Below, piece after piece: positions 43,367 through 52,963 of a stretch of DNA of 64,000 bases (position 1 is the stretch's first letter; each line of letters begins with the position of its first letter). The position numbers and the translations under genes are program-made. Under the pieces are notes generated by a model. The model saw only the letters and a list, made by a program, of their open reading frames with translations, searched no databases and was not told the DNA's origin. Source of the DNA: Acidobacteriota bacterium (GTDB lineage: Bacteria; Acidobacteriota; Holophagae; Holophagales; Holophagaceae); assembly GCA_005788175.1 (NCBI GenBank), contig SXYX01000012.1, positions 124,001 to 188,000 of the forward strand, in the 5' to 3' direction.

Positions 43367-43395
43367 ATTTTATCATTTTGAAGCCAATGGCTCAA
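43367..43395 (-). promoter_or_regulatory. Candidate promoter of the atp operon
   Basis: On the minus strand TTGAGC (plus positions 43390-43395) and TAAAAT (43367-43372) are separated by exactly 17 bp, a good sigma-70 layout. The predicted transcript starts near 43360, about 70-110 nt before the b' start, and carries a small GAGGG/CCCTC hairpin (43313-43330). Confidence 0.55.
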
Positions 43396-43455
43396 TGAGG
43401 GGTTTAAGATTTGACTCGTAGCCTTGCTCATGAGAGCCTAAAAAACTTAAGATAA

Positions 43456-43531
43456 GGGCTGTTAGCTCAGTTGGTAGAGCGGCTGCTTTACATGCAGCGG
43501 GTCGGGGGTTCGAGTCCCTCATCGCCCACCA
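43456..43531 (+). tRNA. tRNA-Val (anticodon TAC)
   Basis: Cloverleaf with anticodon loop TTTACAT (anticodon TAC), T-loop TTCGAGT, discriminator A and encoded CCA. The acceptor stem GGGCTGT against ATCGCCC has a T-C mismatch at pair 5-68 and a G-U at 6-67, unlike the usual GGGCGAT. Confidence 0.92.
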
Positions 43532-43549
43532 CTCAAACTTTGAAAATTT

Positions 43550-43626
43550 GGGGTCGTAGCTCAGTCGGTTAGAGTGCCAGCCTGTCACGCTGGAAGTCGC
43601 GGGTTCGAGTCCCGTCGGCCCCGCCA
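43550..43626 (+). tRNA. tRNA-Asp (anticodon GTC)
   Basis: Cloverleaf with acceptor GGGGTCG pairing with CGGCCCC, anticodon loop CTGTCAC (anticodon GTC), T-loop TTCGAGT, discriminator G and encoded CCA. It follows tRNA-Val by 18 nt. Minus-strand frames read across these two genes are not real. Confidence 0.95.
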
Positions 43627-43695
43627 AATGGATACACTCAAGACGTAGCGTACTTCTAGACTTTACTGCGTCTATAGGGTGTTCTTCATCAGCTT

Positions 43696-47180: not shown

Positions 47181-47320
47181 TCTCAGTCCCTAGGAGCGTT
47201 ATCCAGAAAGGTGGAGGGTTCAGGCCCTGCGAAACCTTGGCAACCTGCCCTATAAGGCAAGGTGCTACATCCTGCCCTCATTTTTACCAAAAAAAGGGAA
47301 AGATACCGAGCATTCTGAGA
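47181..47320 (+). promoter_or_regulatory. SAM-I (S-box) riboswitch
   Basis: Clear S-box core: T-T-A-T-C-C-A-G-A-A-A-G-G-T-G-G-A-G-G-G, then G-G-C-C-C-x-x-C-G-A-A-A-C-C-x-x-G-G-C-A-A-C-C, then A-A-G-G-T-G-C-T-A-C-A-T-C-C, then a closing G-A-T-A. P1 (about C-G-T-T-A-T-C with G-A-T-A-C-C-G, one mismatch) is present; TCTCAG at 47181 and CTGAGA at 47315 could extend it. SAM binding should turn off the genes that follow. No T-run terminator follows, so control is probably at translation (see the hairpin at 47350). Confidence 0.93.
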
Positions 47321-47376: not shown

Positions 47377-49245
47377 GTGATCACTTCTATTCTTCCTTTT
47401 CGTGATGTCCTACGGGAAGGTAAAAAAATTCTTTTTGATGGCTCAACCTCGAGCGCACTCTTCGAAAAAGGATTGGGGACCAATAGAAATTTTGACGAAG
47501 CAAGTTTAAAGCATCCCGATTGGGTTCAATCTATCCATCTTGAATTCTTAAAGGCTGGATCTCAAGTATTAACTACTAATACATGGGGGGCCAATCGCTT
47601 TCGACTTGCTTCCTATGGTCTTGAACATCAAGTGGAGGCAATCAATTTAGCTTCCGTAAAACTTGCTCAGTCAGCCCGATCTGAAAATGATAGTTCTGCT
47701 TGGATCGGAGGATGTCTTGGACCTTTGGGTCTGCGCATTGAGCCATGGGGGCCTACCTCCTTTGATGAGGCTAAAGCCTGTTTTAGAGAGCAGGCTTTAG
47801 TTTTACAAAAGGCAGGAATCGATTGCTTCATCCTGGAATCTTTTGAAGATATTCAGGAAATCCATCAAGCCATCTTGGCCATTCAGGAAATCGGTTCAAC
47901 CCCTATTGTGGCTATGATGAACACCAACGATGAAGGCTCTGCTCTCTTCGGATGTTCAGCCGAACAAATCGGTCAATCCCTAACCGAGTGGGGAGTGGAT
48001 GTTCTAGGAGTTAACGGAGGCAATGGTCCAGCGGTCCATCTTAGAATTTTGGAGCGTTTAAGAAGAGTGACCTCACTTCCTCTAATTTCTCAACCAAGTC
48101 CGGGTCTACCCAATGTAGTTGATGGACGTGTATTCTTCATGGCCTCCCCTCAATACTTGGGAGAATTTGCAAATAAAGCTCTCGCACTCGGAGCTCAGTG
48201 CTTAGGGGGATGCAGCGGTACCAGCCCTGATCACATCCGGGCTATGGGGGGCTCGTTCAGACAAGCTCGTGCGTTTCATCACTCTGTATCTCCAGTAGTT
48301 GAAATCAAACGAACAGAAAGTATCAAAGAGGCGATACCCCAAGCCAAACGAAGTTTATGGGCCAAAAAAGTTGTTAATGGAGACTTCGTTACGTCTGTAG
48401 AACTAGTTCCTCCTAATGGGATGGAATTGGAGAAAATGATTGAAAAGGCCCGTCATTGTCAGTCTTTAGGGGTGGATGCGATCAACATTCCCGATGGCCC
48501 CCGAGCTATGGCTCGTATCAGCGCTCTTGCGACCGCCGTCATTGTGGAGCGAGAAGTGGGGATCGAAACTGTCCTCCATTATGCGTGTCGCGACCGTAAT
48601 CTTTTAGGAATGCAAAGCGATCTTCTTGGAGCGGCTGCGCTGAAACTAAAAAATATTTTAGCCGTTACAGGCGATCCGCCCAAACTCGGCCCCTATCCGA
48701 ATGCTACGGGTGTCTTCGATGTAGATGCCATTGGCCTTGTTCATATTCTAAGAAATTTGAATATTGGAATTGATATCGGGGGTGGAGGCATCGGCAGTCC
48801 GACCGCTTTTAGCATTGGCGTAGGAGCGAATCCTGTGGCTCCCGATATACACAAAGAAGAGTCGAGGTTTAAGTGGAAAGTAGAAGCAGGTGCGGAATGG
48901 GCTATCACCCAACCTATTTTTGATGCCACGGCCCTGTTTAAGTTTCTTGATTTTGCCCAACCCCTAGGTATTCCCATCGTGGCTGGCATTTGGCCATTCA
49001 AACATCTCAAGAATGCAGAGTTTATGGCTAACGAAGTTCCTGGAGTATTTGTCCCACCGTCTCTTTTAGAGAGAATGGGGCGATTTTCCTCTCAGGCCGA
49101 TCAACTCAAAGAGGGACAATCTATTGCCAGAGAATTAATGGAGAAAGTTGCCTCTCGGGTAGCGGGTTTTCAAATCAGTGCACCCTTCGGACAGGTTGAA
49201 AATATCGCTCCCCTTCTCGAAGACCGCAAGACGGGGAGAATTTGA
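47377..49245 (+). CDS. metF: Homocysteine methyltransferase-like domain fused to methylenetetrahydrofolate reductase (YitJ/MetF type)
   Basis: Two-domain protein of 622 residues. The N-terminal domain (about 10-310) is like the homocysteine-binding domain of MetH and BhmT. The C-terminal domain (about 340-610) is MetF-like: Y-A-C-R-D-R-N-L, A-V-T-G-D-P-P, and Q-P-I-F-D near the end; it should reduce methylene-THF to methyl-THF with FAD. Same layout as B. subtilis YitJ, also SAM-riboswitch-controlled. In the N-terminal domain two of the three zinc-binding cysteines are missing: V-N-G-G (residue 214, normally N-C) and G-G-C-S-G (Ser280, normally C-C). That half may not be an active methyltransferase. 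GTG start; the next gene overlaps its stop by 4 nt. Confidence 0.9.
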   Translation: MITSILPFRDVLREGKKILFDGSTSSALFEKGLGTNRNFDEASLKHPDWVQSIHLEFLKAGSQVLTTNTWGANRFRLASYGLEHQVEAINLASVKLAQSARSENDSSAWIGGCLGPLGLRIEPWGPTSFDEAKACFREQALVLQKAGIDCFILESFEDIQEIHQAILAIQEIGSTPIVAMMNTNDEGSALFGCSAEQIGQSLTEWGVDVLGVNGGNGPAVHLRILERLRRVTSLPLISQPSPGLPNVVDGRVFFMASPQYLGEFANKALALGAQCLGGCSGTSPDHIRAMGGSFRQARAFHHSVSPVVEIKRTESIKEAIPQAKRSLWAKKVVNGDFVTSVELVPPNGMELEKMIEKARHCQSLGVDAINIPDGPRAMARISALATAVIVEREVGIETVLHYACRDRNLLGMQSDLLGAAALKLKNILAVTGDPPKLGPYPNATGVFDVDAIGLVHILRNLNIGIDIGGGGIGSPTAFSIGVGANPVAPDIHKEESRFKWKVEAGAEWAITQPIFDATALFKFLDFAQPLGIPIVAGIWPFKHLKNAEFMANEVPGVFVPPSLLERMGRFSSQADQLKEGQSIARELMEKVASRVAGFQISAPFGQVENIAPLLEDRKTGRI

Positions 49246-49535
49246 TGAAGCCTTGTCGTATTCATTTTATTCTTGAGGGCATGGTCGTCGAGGCCCCATC
49301 GGGGATTTCCCTGGAAGAAGTAGCGACTTTTTCCCATGCCGATATTACTTTTGGTTGCAAATCAGGATCGTGTGGTACGTGTCGAGTTTCGATTCCTAAC
49401 CAGCACACTCAGTGCATTCCTCCTTCGGCAGAAGAGGCTTCGTTTATTAAACAATTAGGCGGTTCGCCAAATGAACGATTAGCTTGCCAAGTAAAAATTC
49501 TTGGGGACATTAATGTGGAATATTTGGGTCTATGA
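49242..49535 (+). CDS. Plant-type [2Fe-2S] ferredoxin
   Basis: Small electron-transfer protein of 97 residues. The cluster motif G-C-K-S-G-S-C-G-T-C is the classical C-x4-C-x2-C, with the fourth cysteine in L-A-C-Q near residue 85. It begins with ATGATG overlapping the metF-fusion stop and its stop overlaps the metH start (ATGA), so all three are translationally coupled. The likely job, by inference, is to give electrons for reductive reactivation of cobalamin in MetH or to serve MetF. MetH of E. coli uses flavodoxin for this. Confidence 0.85.
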   Translation: MMKPCRIHFILEGMVVEAPSGISLEEVATFSHADITFGCKSGSCGTCRVSIPNQHTQCIPPSAEEASFIKQLGGSPNERLACQVKILGDINVEYLGL

Positions 49536-52500
49536 AAACACTAGAATCGATTCTACAAGAACGAACTTTTCTGCTCGATGGGGGTATGGGAACGCAAATA
49601 TTTGCCCACAAGCCAACAGTCGACGATTATGGAGGTCCTCAGTGGGAGGGTTGTCCTGAAATACTCAACCGTCGTCGTCCCTCATGGATCCGGGATATAC
49701 ATCAAAGTTATTTCGAGGCCGGTTCAGACGGAGTGGAGACTAATACCTTCGGATGCAACGAACTAGTTCTATCGGACTTTGGGCTTGAAAAAGAAGCTTA
49801 TCAATTAAATGTTGAAGCGGCGCAACTTGCTCAAGAAGTGGCGCGATCCTTTACTACCCCAAAATTTGTCATTGGGTCCGTAGGCCCTGGGACTAGGCTC
49901 TTAACGTTAGGTCACACCCATTACGATGTCATGCTTCGCTCCTACATGAATCAGATTGAAGGTTTAATGGAAGGGGGCGTCGATGCTCTACTCTTTGAGA
50001 CATGCCAAGATTTAGCACAAATTAAATTAGTGGTTCGCGCTGCCAAGTCTGTCATGTTGCGACGTCAGAAAAAAGTTCCTATTTGGGTTCAAGCCACTAT
50101 AGAAACGACTGGAACCCTCTTGGTGGGTAGCGAGATGGCCTCCGTTCTGACCACCATTGAACCCTTAGGCGTTGATGTTCTAGGCATGAATTGCGCTACA
50201 GGACCCAACGAAATGCATGCACACCTCCAAGTTCTTGCGGAACAAAGTCCTTTTATGATTAGTTGTGTACCGAATGCAGGAATACCTGAAAACAAAGGGG
50301 GGCATGTTCATTACCCCTTAGATTCGGAAGCCTTTGCAGCCGATGTGCTAAAACTTGGACAAGAATTTGGAATTAATATTTTGGGTGGATGCTGCGGAAC
50401 CACGCCTGAACACATAAAAGCCTTGTCCAAAGTGATTGGGTCTGTGACTCCCAAGCCTCGTGCGCGAACGTCCGAGCGCAGTATTTCAAGCCTTTATAGT
50501 TCGCTCAATCTTGCTCAACTTCCTCCGCCGATTATTGTGGGAGAGCGGACAAATGCCAATGGATCAAGAAAATTCAAGGATCTCCTAGCCTCTGAGGACT
50601 GGGAAGGCCTTGTTTCAATCGCCAAAGATCAACAAAAGGAAGGCGCTCATCTACTCGATGTATGCGTCGCCTATGTCGGCCGCGATGAAGTAAGAGACAT
50701 GGAGGAGGTCTTAAAGCGGGTAGTCGTCCAAACCACTCTCCCCCTGATGATTGATTCAACAGAAGTCCCCGTAATCGAAAGAGCCCTTCAAGTAGCTCCG
50801 GGTAAATGCATTGTAAATTCTATTAACTTTGAAGATGGCGATGAGCGTGCACGACAAGTCATTGAGCTATGCAAGACTTACGGAGCAGGCCTGGTTGCGC
50901 TAACAATCGATGAGCGTGGTATGGCTAAAACACGTCAACAAAAGTTTGAGGTTGCTCGTCGACTCATTCAGTTAGCCGAATCCTATGGGCTCCCCCAAGG
51001 TGATCTCATCATTGACCCTCTCACCTTTACCCTGGGAAGCGGAGATGAAGAGTTCCGCGGGAGTGCGGTAGAAACCCTTGAGGCCATTGCTCTCATTAAA
51101 GAAAATTACCCCGAGGTTAGAACCATCCTCGGGGTTAGTAATGTCAGTTTTGGATTAATGCCCCAGGCACGACATAGTCTGAATGCCCTCATGTTGTATC
51201 ACGGGGTTAAAAAAGGTCTGGACTTCGCCATTTTTAATTCAGCTAAAGTGATTCCGGTAGCCAAAATCGAATTAAACGAACGAACAATGATTGAGGATCT
51301 CATTTTTGATCGTCGACGAGAAGGTTACGATCCTCTCAAAAGTATCTTGGCTCATTTCTCGACCAAGCCACAGATTGTTAAAACAGAAATGGATCAATCA
51401 GTTCCTTTAAAAGAGAGAATTGCATTGGGAATTATTGACGGAGAAAAACAACGAATTGTTATCGATGTTCAGAAAGCTCTCGACCAAGGCGATGACCCTC
51501 TTTGGCTGATTAACGAAGTTTTATTGGGAGCGATGAAGGTTGTAGGGGAACGTTTTGGCTCAGGGGAAATGCAATTGCCTTTTGTCTTAGAGAGTGCGGA
51601 AGCTATGAAAGTAGCGATTGCCGTCATTGAACCGCGACTTCCCAAGGAAAGTAATACAACCAAAGGTCGGATCATCTTGGCAACCGTTAAGGGCGATGTT
51701 CACGATATTGGAAAAAATTTAGTGGATATCATTCTGTCGAATAATGGTTTTGAAGTAAAAAATATCGGAATCAAGAAACCCATAGAGGATATTCTTCAAA
51801 CCTATTCGGAATGGCCCGCAGACGCGATTGGGCTTTCAGGATTATTGGTAAAATCTACAGTTATTATGAAAGAAAATTTAACTTATATGCAGCAAAGAGG
51901 CTTTGATATCCCAGTAATTTTAGGAGGGGCAGCGTTGACACGACAATACGTAGAAACTACGTGTCGGGAGTGTTACCAGGGTCCCGTGTACTATGCTTCC
52001 GATGCTTTCGAAGGCTTGCGGTTAATGCAGGAACTGAAAGAGGGTTCGCTATCCCCAACTTCCAAGGCCGCTCTTGCAGCTGAAGAAGCACCTTCACTGA
52101 AGATCATTGAGAAAGGCCATCAAGCGGTCGACCTAACCCCAGCCGGACAGAGTTCGTGGGTCCGACGAATGGACGTAACTCCCACCCCTCCCTTTTGGGG
52201 GGTAAAAACTCACAGAGCCAGCCTTGAAGAATTGTGGTCTTATCTCGATACTTGGGTTTTGATTCATCATCGATGGGGCTATTCACAAGGATCACTAAGT
52301 TCCGAAGCGTTCACTAAACTCCAAAGAGAAAAAGTAGAGCCTCAACTTCAAGAGTGGAAGGAACGGCTTCTTCAACTTAATTTCATTCAGCCCCAGGCTT
52401 GCTATGGTTACTTTCCCGTTCGCGCAGAGAGAGAAAATCTTCAATGGTTCGATCCCGAAGCCAAGAAGATTTTATCTACCATGTCTTTTCCCCGACAAAA

Positions 52501-52963
52501 TAAAGGGAGGCGCCTAAGTATTCCGGACTTTTTTAGCTCCTCCAGTGAAAGATTAGATGTGGGAGCCTGTCAATTGGTGACGCTAGGACAGGAGCCCGCA
52601 GAATTCACCCAGAAACTATACAGTACAGGTCAGTTTTCAGAATACTTTTTAGCCCATGGACTCATGACCGAACTCACTGAGGCTTATGCCGAACTTCTTC
52701 ATGCTCACATTCGAAAAGAATTGGGTATCGATGGTAAGGATGCACCTCATCGCCGTCAACTTTACGCGCAAGGATATCAGGGGTCTCGGTTTTCTTTTGG
52801 CTATCCTGCCTGTCCAGATCTCGAAGGCAACCAACCTCTGCTTCATCTTTTAGACGCCTCTCAAATTGGTGTTGAGTTGACCGAATCTTTTCAGATGGAT
52901 CCCGAGTTTTCAACGAGCGCATTAATTGCTTGGCATCCTCAAGCCCGTTATTTTTCTGTTTAG
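49532..52963 (+). CDS. metH: Cobalamin-dependent methionine synthase MetH
   Basis: Four-module enzyme of 1143 residues moving a methyl group from methyl-THF to homocysteine through cobalamin. Modules in order: homocysteine domain (about 1-310) with all zinc ligands (M-N-C-A-T-G and G-G-C-C-G-T); pterin-binding domain (about 335-610); cobalamin-binding domain (about 640-880) with G-D-V-H-D-I-G-K-N, the D-x-H-x-x-G motif near residue 725; and the SAM-dependent activation domain (about 890-1143) with G-Y-P-A-C-P-D. The activation domain implies a need for one-electron reduction, which fits the ferredoxin gene just before. Start overlaps the ferredoxin stop (ATGA). Confidence 0.97.
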   Translation: MKTLESILQERTFLLDGGMGTQIFAHKPTVDDYGGPQWEGCPEILNRRRPSWIRDIHQSYFEAGSDGVETNTFGCNELVLSDFGLEKEAYQLNVEAAQLAQEVARSFTTPKFVIGSVGPGTRLLTLGHTHYDVMLRSYMNQIEGLMEGGVDALLFETCQDLAQIKLVVRAAKSVMLRRQKKVPIWVQATIETTGTLLVGSEMASVLTTIEPLGVDVLGMNCATGPNEMHAHLQVLAEQSPFMISCVPNAGIPENKGGHVHYPLDSEAFAADVLKLGQEFGINILGGCCGTTPEHIKALSKVIGSVTPKPRARTSERSISSLYSSLNLAQLPPPIIVGERTNANGSRKFKDLLASEDWEGLVSIAKDQQKEGAHLLDVCVAYVGRDEVRDMEEVLKRVVVQTTLPLMIDSTEVPVIERALQVAPGKCIVNSINFEDGDERARQVIELCKTYGAGLVALTIDERGMAKTRQQKFEVARRLIQLAESYGLPQGDLIIDPLTFTLGSGDEEFRGSAVETLEAIALIKENYPEVRTILGVSNVSFGLMPQARHSLNALMLYHGVKKGLDFAIFNSAKVIPVAKIELNERTMIEDLIFDRRREGYDPLKSILAHFSTKPQIVKTEMDQSVPLKERIALGIIDGEKQRIVIDVQKALDQGDDPLWLINEVLLGAMKVVGERFGSGEMQLPFVLESAEAMKVAIAVIEPRLPKESNTTKGRIILATVKGDVHDIGKNLVDIILSNNGFEVKNIGIKKPIEDILQTYSEWPADAIGLSGLLVKSTVIMKENLTYMQQRGFDIPVILGGAALTRQYVETTCRECYQGPVYYASDAFEGLRLMQELKEGSLSPTSKAALAAEEAPSLKIIEKGHQAVDLTPAGQSSWVRRMDVTPTPPFWGVKTHRASLEELWSYLDTWVLIHHRWGYSQGSLSSEAFTKLQREKVEPQLQEWKERLLQLNFIQPQACYGYFPVRAERENLQWFDPEAKKILSTMSFPRQNKGRRLSIPDFFSSSSERLDVGACQLVTLGQEPAEFTQKLYSTGQFSEYFLAHGLMTELTEAYAELLHAHIRKELGIDGKDAPHRRQLYAQGYQGSRFSFGYPACPDLEGNQPLLHLLDASQIGVELTESFQMDPEFSTSALIAWHPQARYFSV

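Follow-up and report, generated by a model that had tools for sequence, protein, structure and literature searches.

A methylenetetrahydrofolate reductase of Holophagaceae and Silvanigrellales with a zinc-less, probably non-catalytic homocysteine methyltransferase barrel

Organization of the locus

The window, i.e., the whole stretch of 64,000 nucleotides that was analysed, has a GC content of 44% and belongs to a small Holophagaceae genome of which 894 kb have been assembled (85% complete). The nearest named relative is "Holophagaceae bacterium HTM.8" (98% identity), and the genus appears to be the streamlined freshwater UBA12189/Acidiparvus (PMC11561045). The locus consists of a SAM-I riboswitch and three overlapping genes, which encode a fusion of a homocysteine methyltransferase barrel with methylenetetrahydrofolate reductase (MTHFR), a small ferredoxin, and the methionine synthase MetH (Table 1). 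Elsewhere in the window, an 84-aa open reading frame at 43373-43627 (-) runs antisense to tRNA-Val and tRNA-Asp and is artefactual.

Table 1. Features of the operon and of the fusion gene in the window
Feature	Position	Strand	Details
SAM-I (S-box) riboswitch heading the operon	47196..47309	+	Rfam RF00162, 70 bits (gathering score 44.4)
YitJ/PRK08645-type fusion, homocysteine methyltransferase barrel + MTHFR	47377..49245	+	622 aa, GTG start
Zinc-less homocysteine methyltransferase barrel, residues 19-290	47431..48246	+	Boundaries from Pfam PF02574 (172.6 bits, cut-off 22); Foldseek matches to T. maritima MetH and BHMT
Codon for Gly214, at the site of the first zinc Cys	48016..48018	+	Translation, alignments
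Codons for Cys279 and Ser280, at the sites of the second and third zinc Cys	48211..48216	+	Translation, alignments
MTHFR half, residues 333-588	48373..49140	+	PF02219 (110.8 bits); catalytic Glu342 and Asp433 present
2Fe-2S ferredoxin	49245..49535	+	97 aa, PF00111; ATG at 49245 overlaps the fusion stop (TGATG)
Full-length MetH, intact zinc cysteines and activation domain	49532..52963	+	ATG overlaps the ferredoxin stop (ATGA)

The fusion protein matched NF006396 over its full length, with both domains included (residues 15-618; 602.3 bits against a cut-off of 453). An AlphaFold2 model built from 63 sequences (mean pLDDT 91.3, pTM 0.57) predicted two confident barrels, the mutual placement of which is uncertain at this pTM. 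In the Foldseek search with the model, zinc- and homocysteine-bound T. maritima MetH ranked first, followed by BHMT and MTHFRs; the matches included 3bof, 1q7m, and 4m3p, as well as the eukaryotic MTHFRs 8qa6 and 8uy2. The MetH protein scored 1174.8 bits with TIGR02082 and contained the domains PF02574, PF00809, PF02607, PF02310, and PF02965.

The SAM-I riboswitch was also found directly 5' of the fusion gene at loci L073, L074, L075, L079, L103, and L142, and none was detected in the Silvanigrellales loci scanned or at the 15 zinc-bearing loci scanned. The lineage in which this riboswitch-led operon sits is amino-acid-auxotrophic and streamlined.

Zinc-binding residues of the fusion protein

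In the translation of positions 47377-49242 (+), the motif V-N-G-G-N-G carries Gly214, and the motif Q-C-L-G-G-C-S-G carries Cys275, Cys279, and Ser280. A phmmer alignment with T. maritima MetH (1q7m/3bof) placed residues 214, 279, and 280 opposite residues 207, 272, and 273, which are the zinc cysteines of that enzyme. The triad of the fusion thus reads G-C-S at the positions where NF006396-type fusions have C-C-C, and Cys279 is the only one left. The MetH of the window has the motifs NCATG and GGCCGT with all three zinc cysteines intact, and the triad was CCC in all MetH proteins of the family that were examined. The relative with 98% identity (L033/L073) carries identical residues at the zinc positions of the fusion, and chance or a sequencing error as the source of the ligand loss was ruled out, since the change is family-wide.

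These data bear out the preliminary description of this DNA, which had noted that Gly214 and Ser280 replace zinc cysteines in the fusion, with Cys279 as the sole survivor, and that the site in MetH is intact. It had also held that methyl transfer by the known mechanism is unlikely, and the clade-wide loss of the triad agrees with this. Thiol activation in the known mechanism of homocysteine methyltransferases requires zinc (PMC539065, PMC4516251), and the ligand residues for the catalytic zinc of PF02574 (PMC4516251) are missing from the fusion. Judging from these residues, zinc-dependent methyl transfer by the fusion is very probably absent. The suggestion of an altered metal site that uses Cys275 did not hold. 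The residue is located as had been reported; however, its importance was over-read, because it is conserved in the genus of the window only and is replaced by Ala, Leu, Val, Gly, or Ile elsewhere, and Cys279 itself gives way to Asp or Ser in several members.

The protein shares its two-domain architecture, length, and reductase catalytic residues with YitJ/PRK08645 (NF006396; B. subtilis YitJ is SamT), but it lacks the zinc triad, so bifunctionality is not expected. Homocysteine methyltransferase activity with (R,S)-AdoMet has been reported for B. subtilis SamT(YitJ) (PMC6302742); the fusion of the window should be unable to use this substrate. The barrel fold and residues Gly22, Asn68, Thr69, and Glu154 are common to the fusion and to the homocysteine domain of MetH and BHMT (PF02574), whereas the Cys-Cys-Cys zinc site of the latter proteins is lacking. 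A precedent for the loss of zinc ligands in methionine-synthase homologues is provided by the MesB-like and MesC relatives of MetE, and a different function has been suggested for the MesC of MSBL-1 (PMC7857596). Unlike the fusion, these proteins belong to an unrelated MetE-like family and stand alone, without a fused MTHFR.

Distribution and phylogeny of the zinc-less fusions

Both Cys1 and Cys3 were absent in all 52 Holophagaceae fusions of the locus survey (L073-L129 without six Silvanigrellales loci, plus L142). At the Cys1 position, the fusions had Gly, except those of the termite-gut genus with Glu or Asp; at the Cys3 position, they had Ser or Ala. The same two cysteines were missing from all fusions examined in Silvanigrellales (Bdellovibrionota; Fluviispira, Spirobacillus, Silvanigrella, and others), several of which had lost all three (Gly-Ser-Ser). 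Cys2 was lost repeatedly, with Cys279 replaced by Asp in L032 and by Ser in L049 and Silvanigrellaceae, and the ligand positions of the two groups taken together read Gly/Glu/Asp - Cys/Ser/Asp - Ser/Ala. Cys-Cys-Cys was intact in 58 of the 59 fusions taken from elsewhere in Acidobacteriota, which were open reading frames picked by homology, and in all 56 other tree representatives outside the zinc-less clades. The preliminary description had named, as the finding that would overturn it, Gly and Ser being common in YitJ-type enzymes; nearly all fusions outside the zinc-less groups proved to be Cys-Cys-Cys, and the view that these residues are normal for such enzymes was ruled out.

On the tree of the fusion proteins, the zinc-less state requires two changes. 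Holophagaceae and Silvanigrellales formed one zinc-less clade (100% SH-aLRT), which was nested inside the zinc-bearing fusions and had zinc-bearing Bdellovibrionota fusions as its sister (98%). The second zinc-less clade was formed by a family designated f3, probably Acanthopleuribacteraceae, with Gly-Ala-Ala/Ser at the ligand positions. Among the cases of zinc loss, the zinc-less fusion is the sole MTHFR only in the lineage of Holophagaceae and Silvanigrellales. We found no description of zinc-less YitJ-type fusions in the literature, in a search that was thin on subscription journals.

Several further observations were made during the survey. The zinc-less fusions of f3 (L059:2341-4161, L061:2508-4328, L063:2046-3875, and L066:2085-3905) are paralogous, their homocysteine-holding motifs are also eroded, and the gene coexists with another MTHFR in these four genomes. 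A fusion from another acidobacterial family (L269, genome G301), which was outside the tree, has Ser-Cys-Gln at the zinc positions and looks like a separate, third loss. The Holophagaceae genus g9 (G010, G018; L038, L045) lacks the operon and its type of MetH and has a divergent Cys-Cys-Cys fusion instead, together with several other MTHFR-like genes (four PF02219 matches in G010). The fusion and MetH are jointly absent in some relatives, e.g., G001 (97% complete). At locus L218 (G148 C144), the zinc-less fusion is split into two overlapping open reading frames at the linker between the barrels, through either a frameshift error or a real split.

Ferredoxin, MetH, and origin of the operon

The ferredoxin gene adjoins metH in Holophagaceae, Silvanigrellales, and the Bdellovibrionota genomes G143, G144, and G146. 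In the latter three, it lies directly upstream of metH, and the Cys-Cys-Cys fusion is on another contig. Within the locus survey, almost every zinc-less locus had the ferredoxin between the fusion and MetH, and no zinc-bearing locus did. In the termite-gut genus, the fusion is zinc-less but a close homologue of the ferredoxin is missing. A perfect link between the ferredoxin and zinc loss was therefore ruled out, by the three Bdellovibrionota genomes on the one hand and by the reverse case of the termite-gut genus on the other. At one locus of termite-gut Holophagaceae (L042:2074-3489), an uncharacterised 471-aa protein takes the place of the ferredoxin between the fusion and MetH.

Since G143, G144, and G146 pair the ferredoxin with MetH while their Cys-Cys-Cys fusion lies elsewhere, the ferredoxin most likely serves MetH, putatively in its reductive reactivation. 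A search of the assembled part (85% complete) of the genome of the window found no flavodoxin. The small 2Fe-2S ferredoxin is encoded directly 5' of MetH in two phyla (window 49245-49535; L193-L195, L200).

On the MetH tree, Holophagaceae were placed inside the Bdellovibrionota group that carries the ferredoxin-MetH pairs (100%). This position indicates that transfer of the operon from a Silvanigrellales-like donor would be its simplest history.

Reductase half and constraint on the barrel

Residues Glu342 and Asp433 did not vary among 27 zinc-less and 28 zinc-bearing fusions; they correspond to the catalytic Glu28 and Asp120 of E. coli MTHFR. The fusion is the only MTHFR in the complete Holophagaceae (Geothrix-type) genomes G005, G007, G022, and G034 and the single MTHFR match in the assembled part of the genome of the window. 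Because the catalytic residues are invariant and the protein is the sole MTHFR of the cell, the reductase half must, on sequence grounds, be active. In Geothrix campi SG10 (L056/L122), an in-frame deletion has fused the MTHFR half, cut at about residue 545, to the C-terminal residues of the ferredoxin (..SLRNIDYLGL*), just before MetH; the deletion may be genuine or may stem from misassembly.

The zinc-less barrel is not decaying, and its constraint is equal to that of the zinc-bearing barrels. The ratio of barrel to reductase divergence (mean -ln identity) was 1.42 in the zinc-less fusions, compared with 1.61 and 1.57 in two groups of zinc-bearing ones, and the corresponding ratio of tree lengths was 1.60 against 1.25 and 1.50. 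By the Nei-Gojobori method, dN/dS was 0.154 in the barrel and 0.132 in the reductase half (780 pairs, which are non-independent). The entropy of the barrel mouth was 0.71 in zinc-less and 0.70 in zinc-bearing fusions. Decay of the barrel under relaxed selection was thus ruled out by the rate, dN/dS, and entropy tests. Ten positions that are conserved in the Cys-Cys-Cys fusions were lost in the zinc-less clade; all ten lie in the barrel, chiefly in active-site motifs, and the reductase half has no such position. Cys113 (VAGC-GPLG) and Cys279 are both Cys in 20 of the 27 zinc-less representatives and were mostly lost together, although two members have only one of them; a disulphide, packing, or shared ancestry are possible reasons.

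Possible function of the zinc-less barrel

The best explanation of these results, to which we assign a probability of about 0.75, is that the fusion is a working MTHFR whose methyltransferase barrel, now a pseudoenzyme, persists as a structural or allosteric module, and that MetH would be the protein that transfers the methyl group. The reductase half would make CH3-THF, MetH would methylate homocysteine with its own intact zinc domain, and the small ferredoxin would give the electron for the SAM-dependent reactivation of MetH. Zinc in the barrel may no longer have been needed after the gene came to be expressed always together with a complete MetH. The dead barrel would be a fixed module of the reductase, which may act in folding or oligomerisation, or in regulation through binding of a homocysteine- or methionine-like ligand. 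The preliminary description had also proposed a binding, sensing, or structural role for an otherwise well-kept barrel, and under the purifying selection observed this is the best remaining reading; the extent of the loss over a family and a second phylum, the operon of riboswitch, ferredoxin, and MetH, and the status of the fusion as sole MTHFR were absent from it. Against the explanation, the residual Cys279 and Cys113 could in principle hold a weak metal, and the loss of Asp21 in Silvanigrellaceae weakens a strict role as a homocysteine sensor in that group. The barrel may also be kept for folding alone, and sequence cannot tell a scaffold from a sensor.

A purely structural role, in which this MTHFR lineage needs a ligand-free barrel in order to fold or oligomerise, is a reasonable possibility. 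The barrel is present in every zinc-less fusion examined, the constraint is uniform across barrel and reductase, and the reductase half is unchanged. However, such a role does not predict that the barrel mouth should be better conserved than the remainder of the domain, as was found in the zinc-less fusions (entropy 0.71 and 1.13, respectively; p = 6e-4).

The conserved mouth suggests, more tentatively, an allosteric sensor, in which the zinc-free barrel would bind homocysteine (or methionine, SAM, or SAH) and tune the MTHFR in the manner of the regulatory domain of eukaryotic MTHFRs. Gly22, Thr67, Asn68, Thr69, Gln139, Asp149, and Glu154 were invariant in the 27 zinc-less representatives, and the mouth is conserved as strongly as in the zinc-bearing fusions. 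The former zinc position has turned into a new conserved motif, NGGxGP, with Gly215 present in 27 of 27. The positions Asp21-Gly22, Asn68-Thr69, and Glu154 are presumably those that hold the amino-acid end of homocysteine in MetH and BHMT structures; Asp21 was kept in 23 of the 27 representatives, and its loss in Silvanigrellaceae counts against the sensor. Eukaryotic MTHFRs (8qa6, 8uy2), whose fold was matched by the model and which likewise combine an MTHFR barrel with an accessory domain, show that feedback at the MTHFR step is worthwhile. In those enzymes the SAM-binding regulatory domain lies at the C terminus and has a different fold, whereas the extra domain of the window protein is N-terminal and derived from a methyltransferase. 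On the other hand, a conserved mouth could equally serve folding or docking of a partner, and the Holophagaceae operon is already under the control of a SAM riboswitch. Between the two roles, we lean slightly to the scaffold, with the sensor close behind because the pocket is conserved. A fuller scenario, in which a zinc-free homocysteine/methionine sensor regulates the MTHFR, the operon with MetH and ferredoxin passed from a Silvanigrellales-like bacterium to Holophagaceae, and zinc was lost independently in other Acidobacteriota, would be more speculative still.

It is unlikely that the barrel is a docking site through which the ferredoxin of the operon feeds electrons to the MTHFR instead of NAD(P)H. 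The association of the ferredoxin with nearly all zinc-less and with no zinc-bearing loci would fit such a role, and ferredoxin-dependent MTHFRs exist, namely MetFV (PMC8515935), which in acetogens likewise has the gene of an iron-sulphur protein adjoining that of the MTHFR. However, the iron-sulphur partner of MetFV is unrelated: the neighbours of the window fusion are a Fer2 ferredoxin that tracks MetH and MetH itself, with no MetV beside the fusion. The pairing of ferredoxin and MetH apart from the fusion in G143, G144, and G146 and the retention of the zinc-less fusion without the ferredoxin in the termite-gut genus also argue against docking.

It appears very improbable that the barrel is still an active methyltransferase, be it through an altered metal site, as offered by the preliminary description, or through a metal-free mechanism. 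Cys279 and Cys113 in most members and Glu or Asp at the Cys1 position in the termite-gut genus could be taken in favour of such activity; against it stand the variability of Cys275 and Cys279, the lack of a constant three-ligand set across the clade, and the zinc requirement of the known mechanism. Finally, a vestigial barrel on its way out, made redundant by the same chemistry of MetH in the operon, can hardly be reconciled with a dN/dS of 0.15 without relaxation and with a domain that was never lost across a clade spanning two phyla and is retained even in a streamlined genus with genomes of about 1.2 Mb.

Significance

Since the fusion passes NF006396 (602 bits), annotation pipelines label it "bifunctional homocysteine S-methyltransferase/MTHFR" and thereby assign an activity that is very probably absent. 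This labelling concerns nearly an entire family, whose members live in soil, sediment, and freshwater. The cultured members Geothrix fermentans and Fluviispira make the proposed reading directly testable. The ferredoxin-MetH pair points to a possible dedicated reactivation partner for the B12-dependent methionine synthase in bacteria without flavodoxin. If the pocket of the barrel still binds homocysteine, the fusion would represent bacterial MTHFR feedback built from a retired enzyme.
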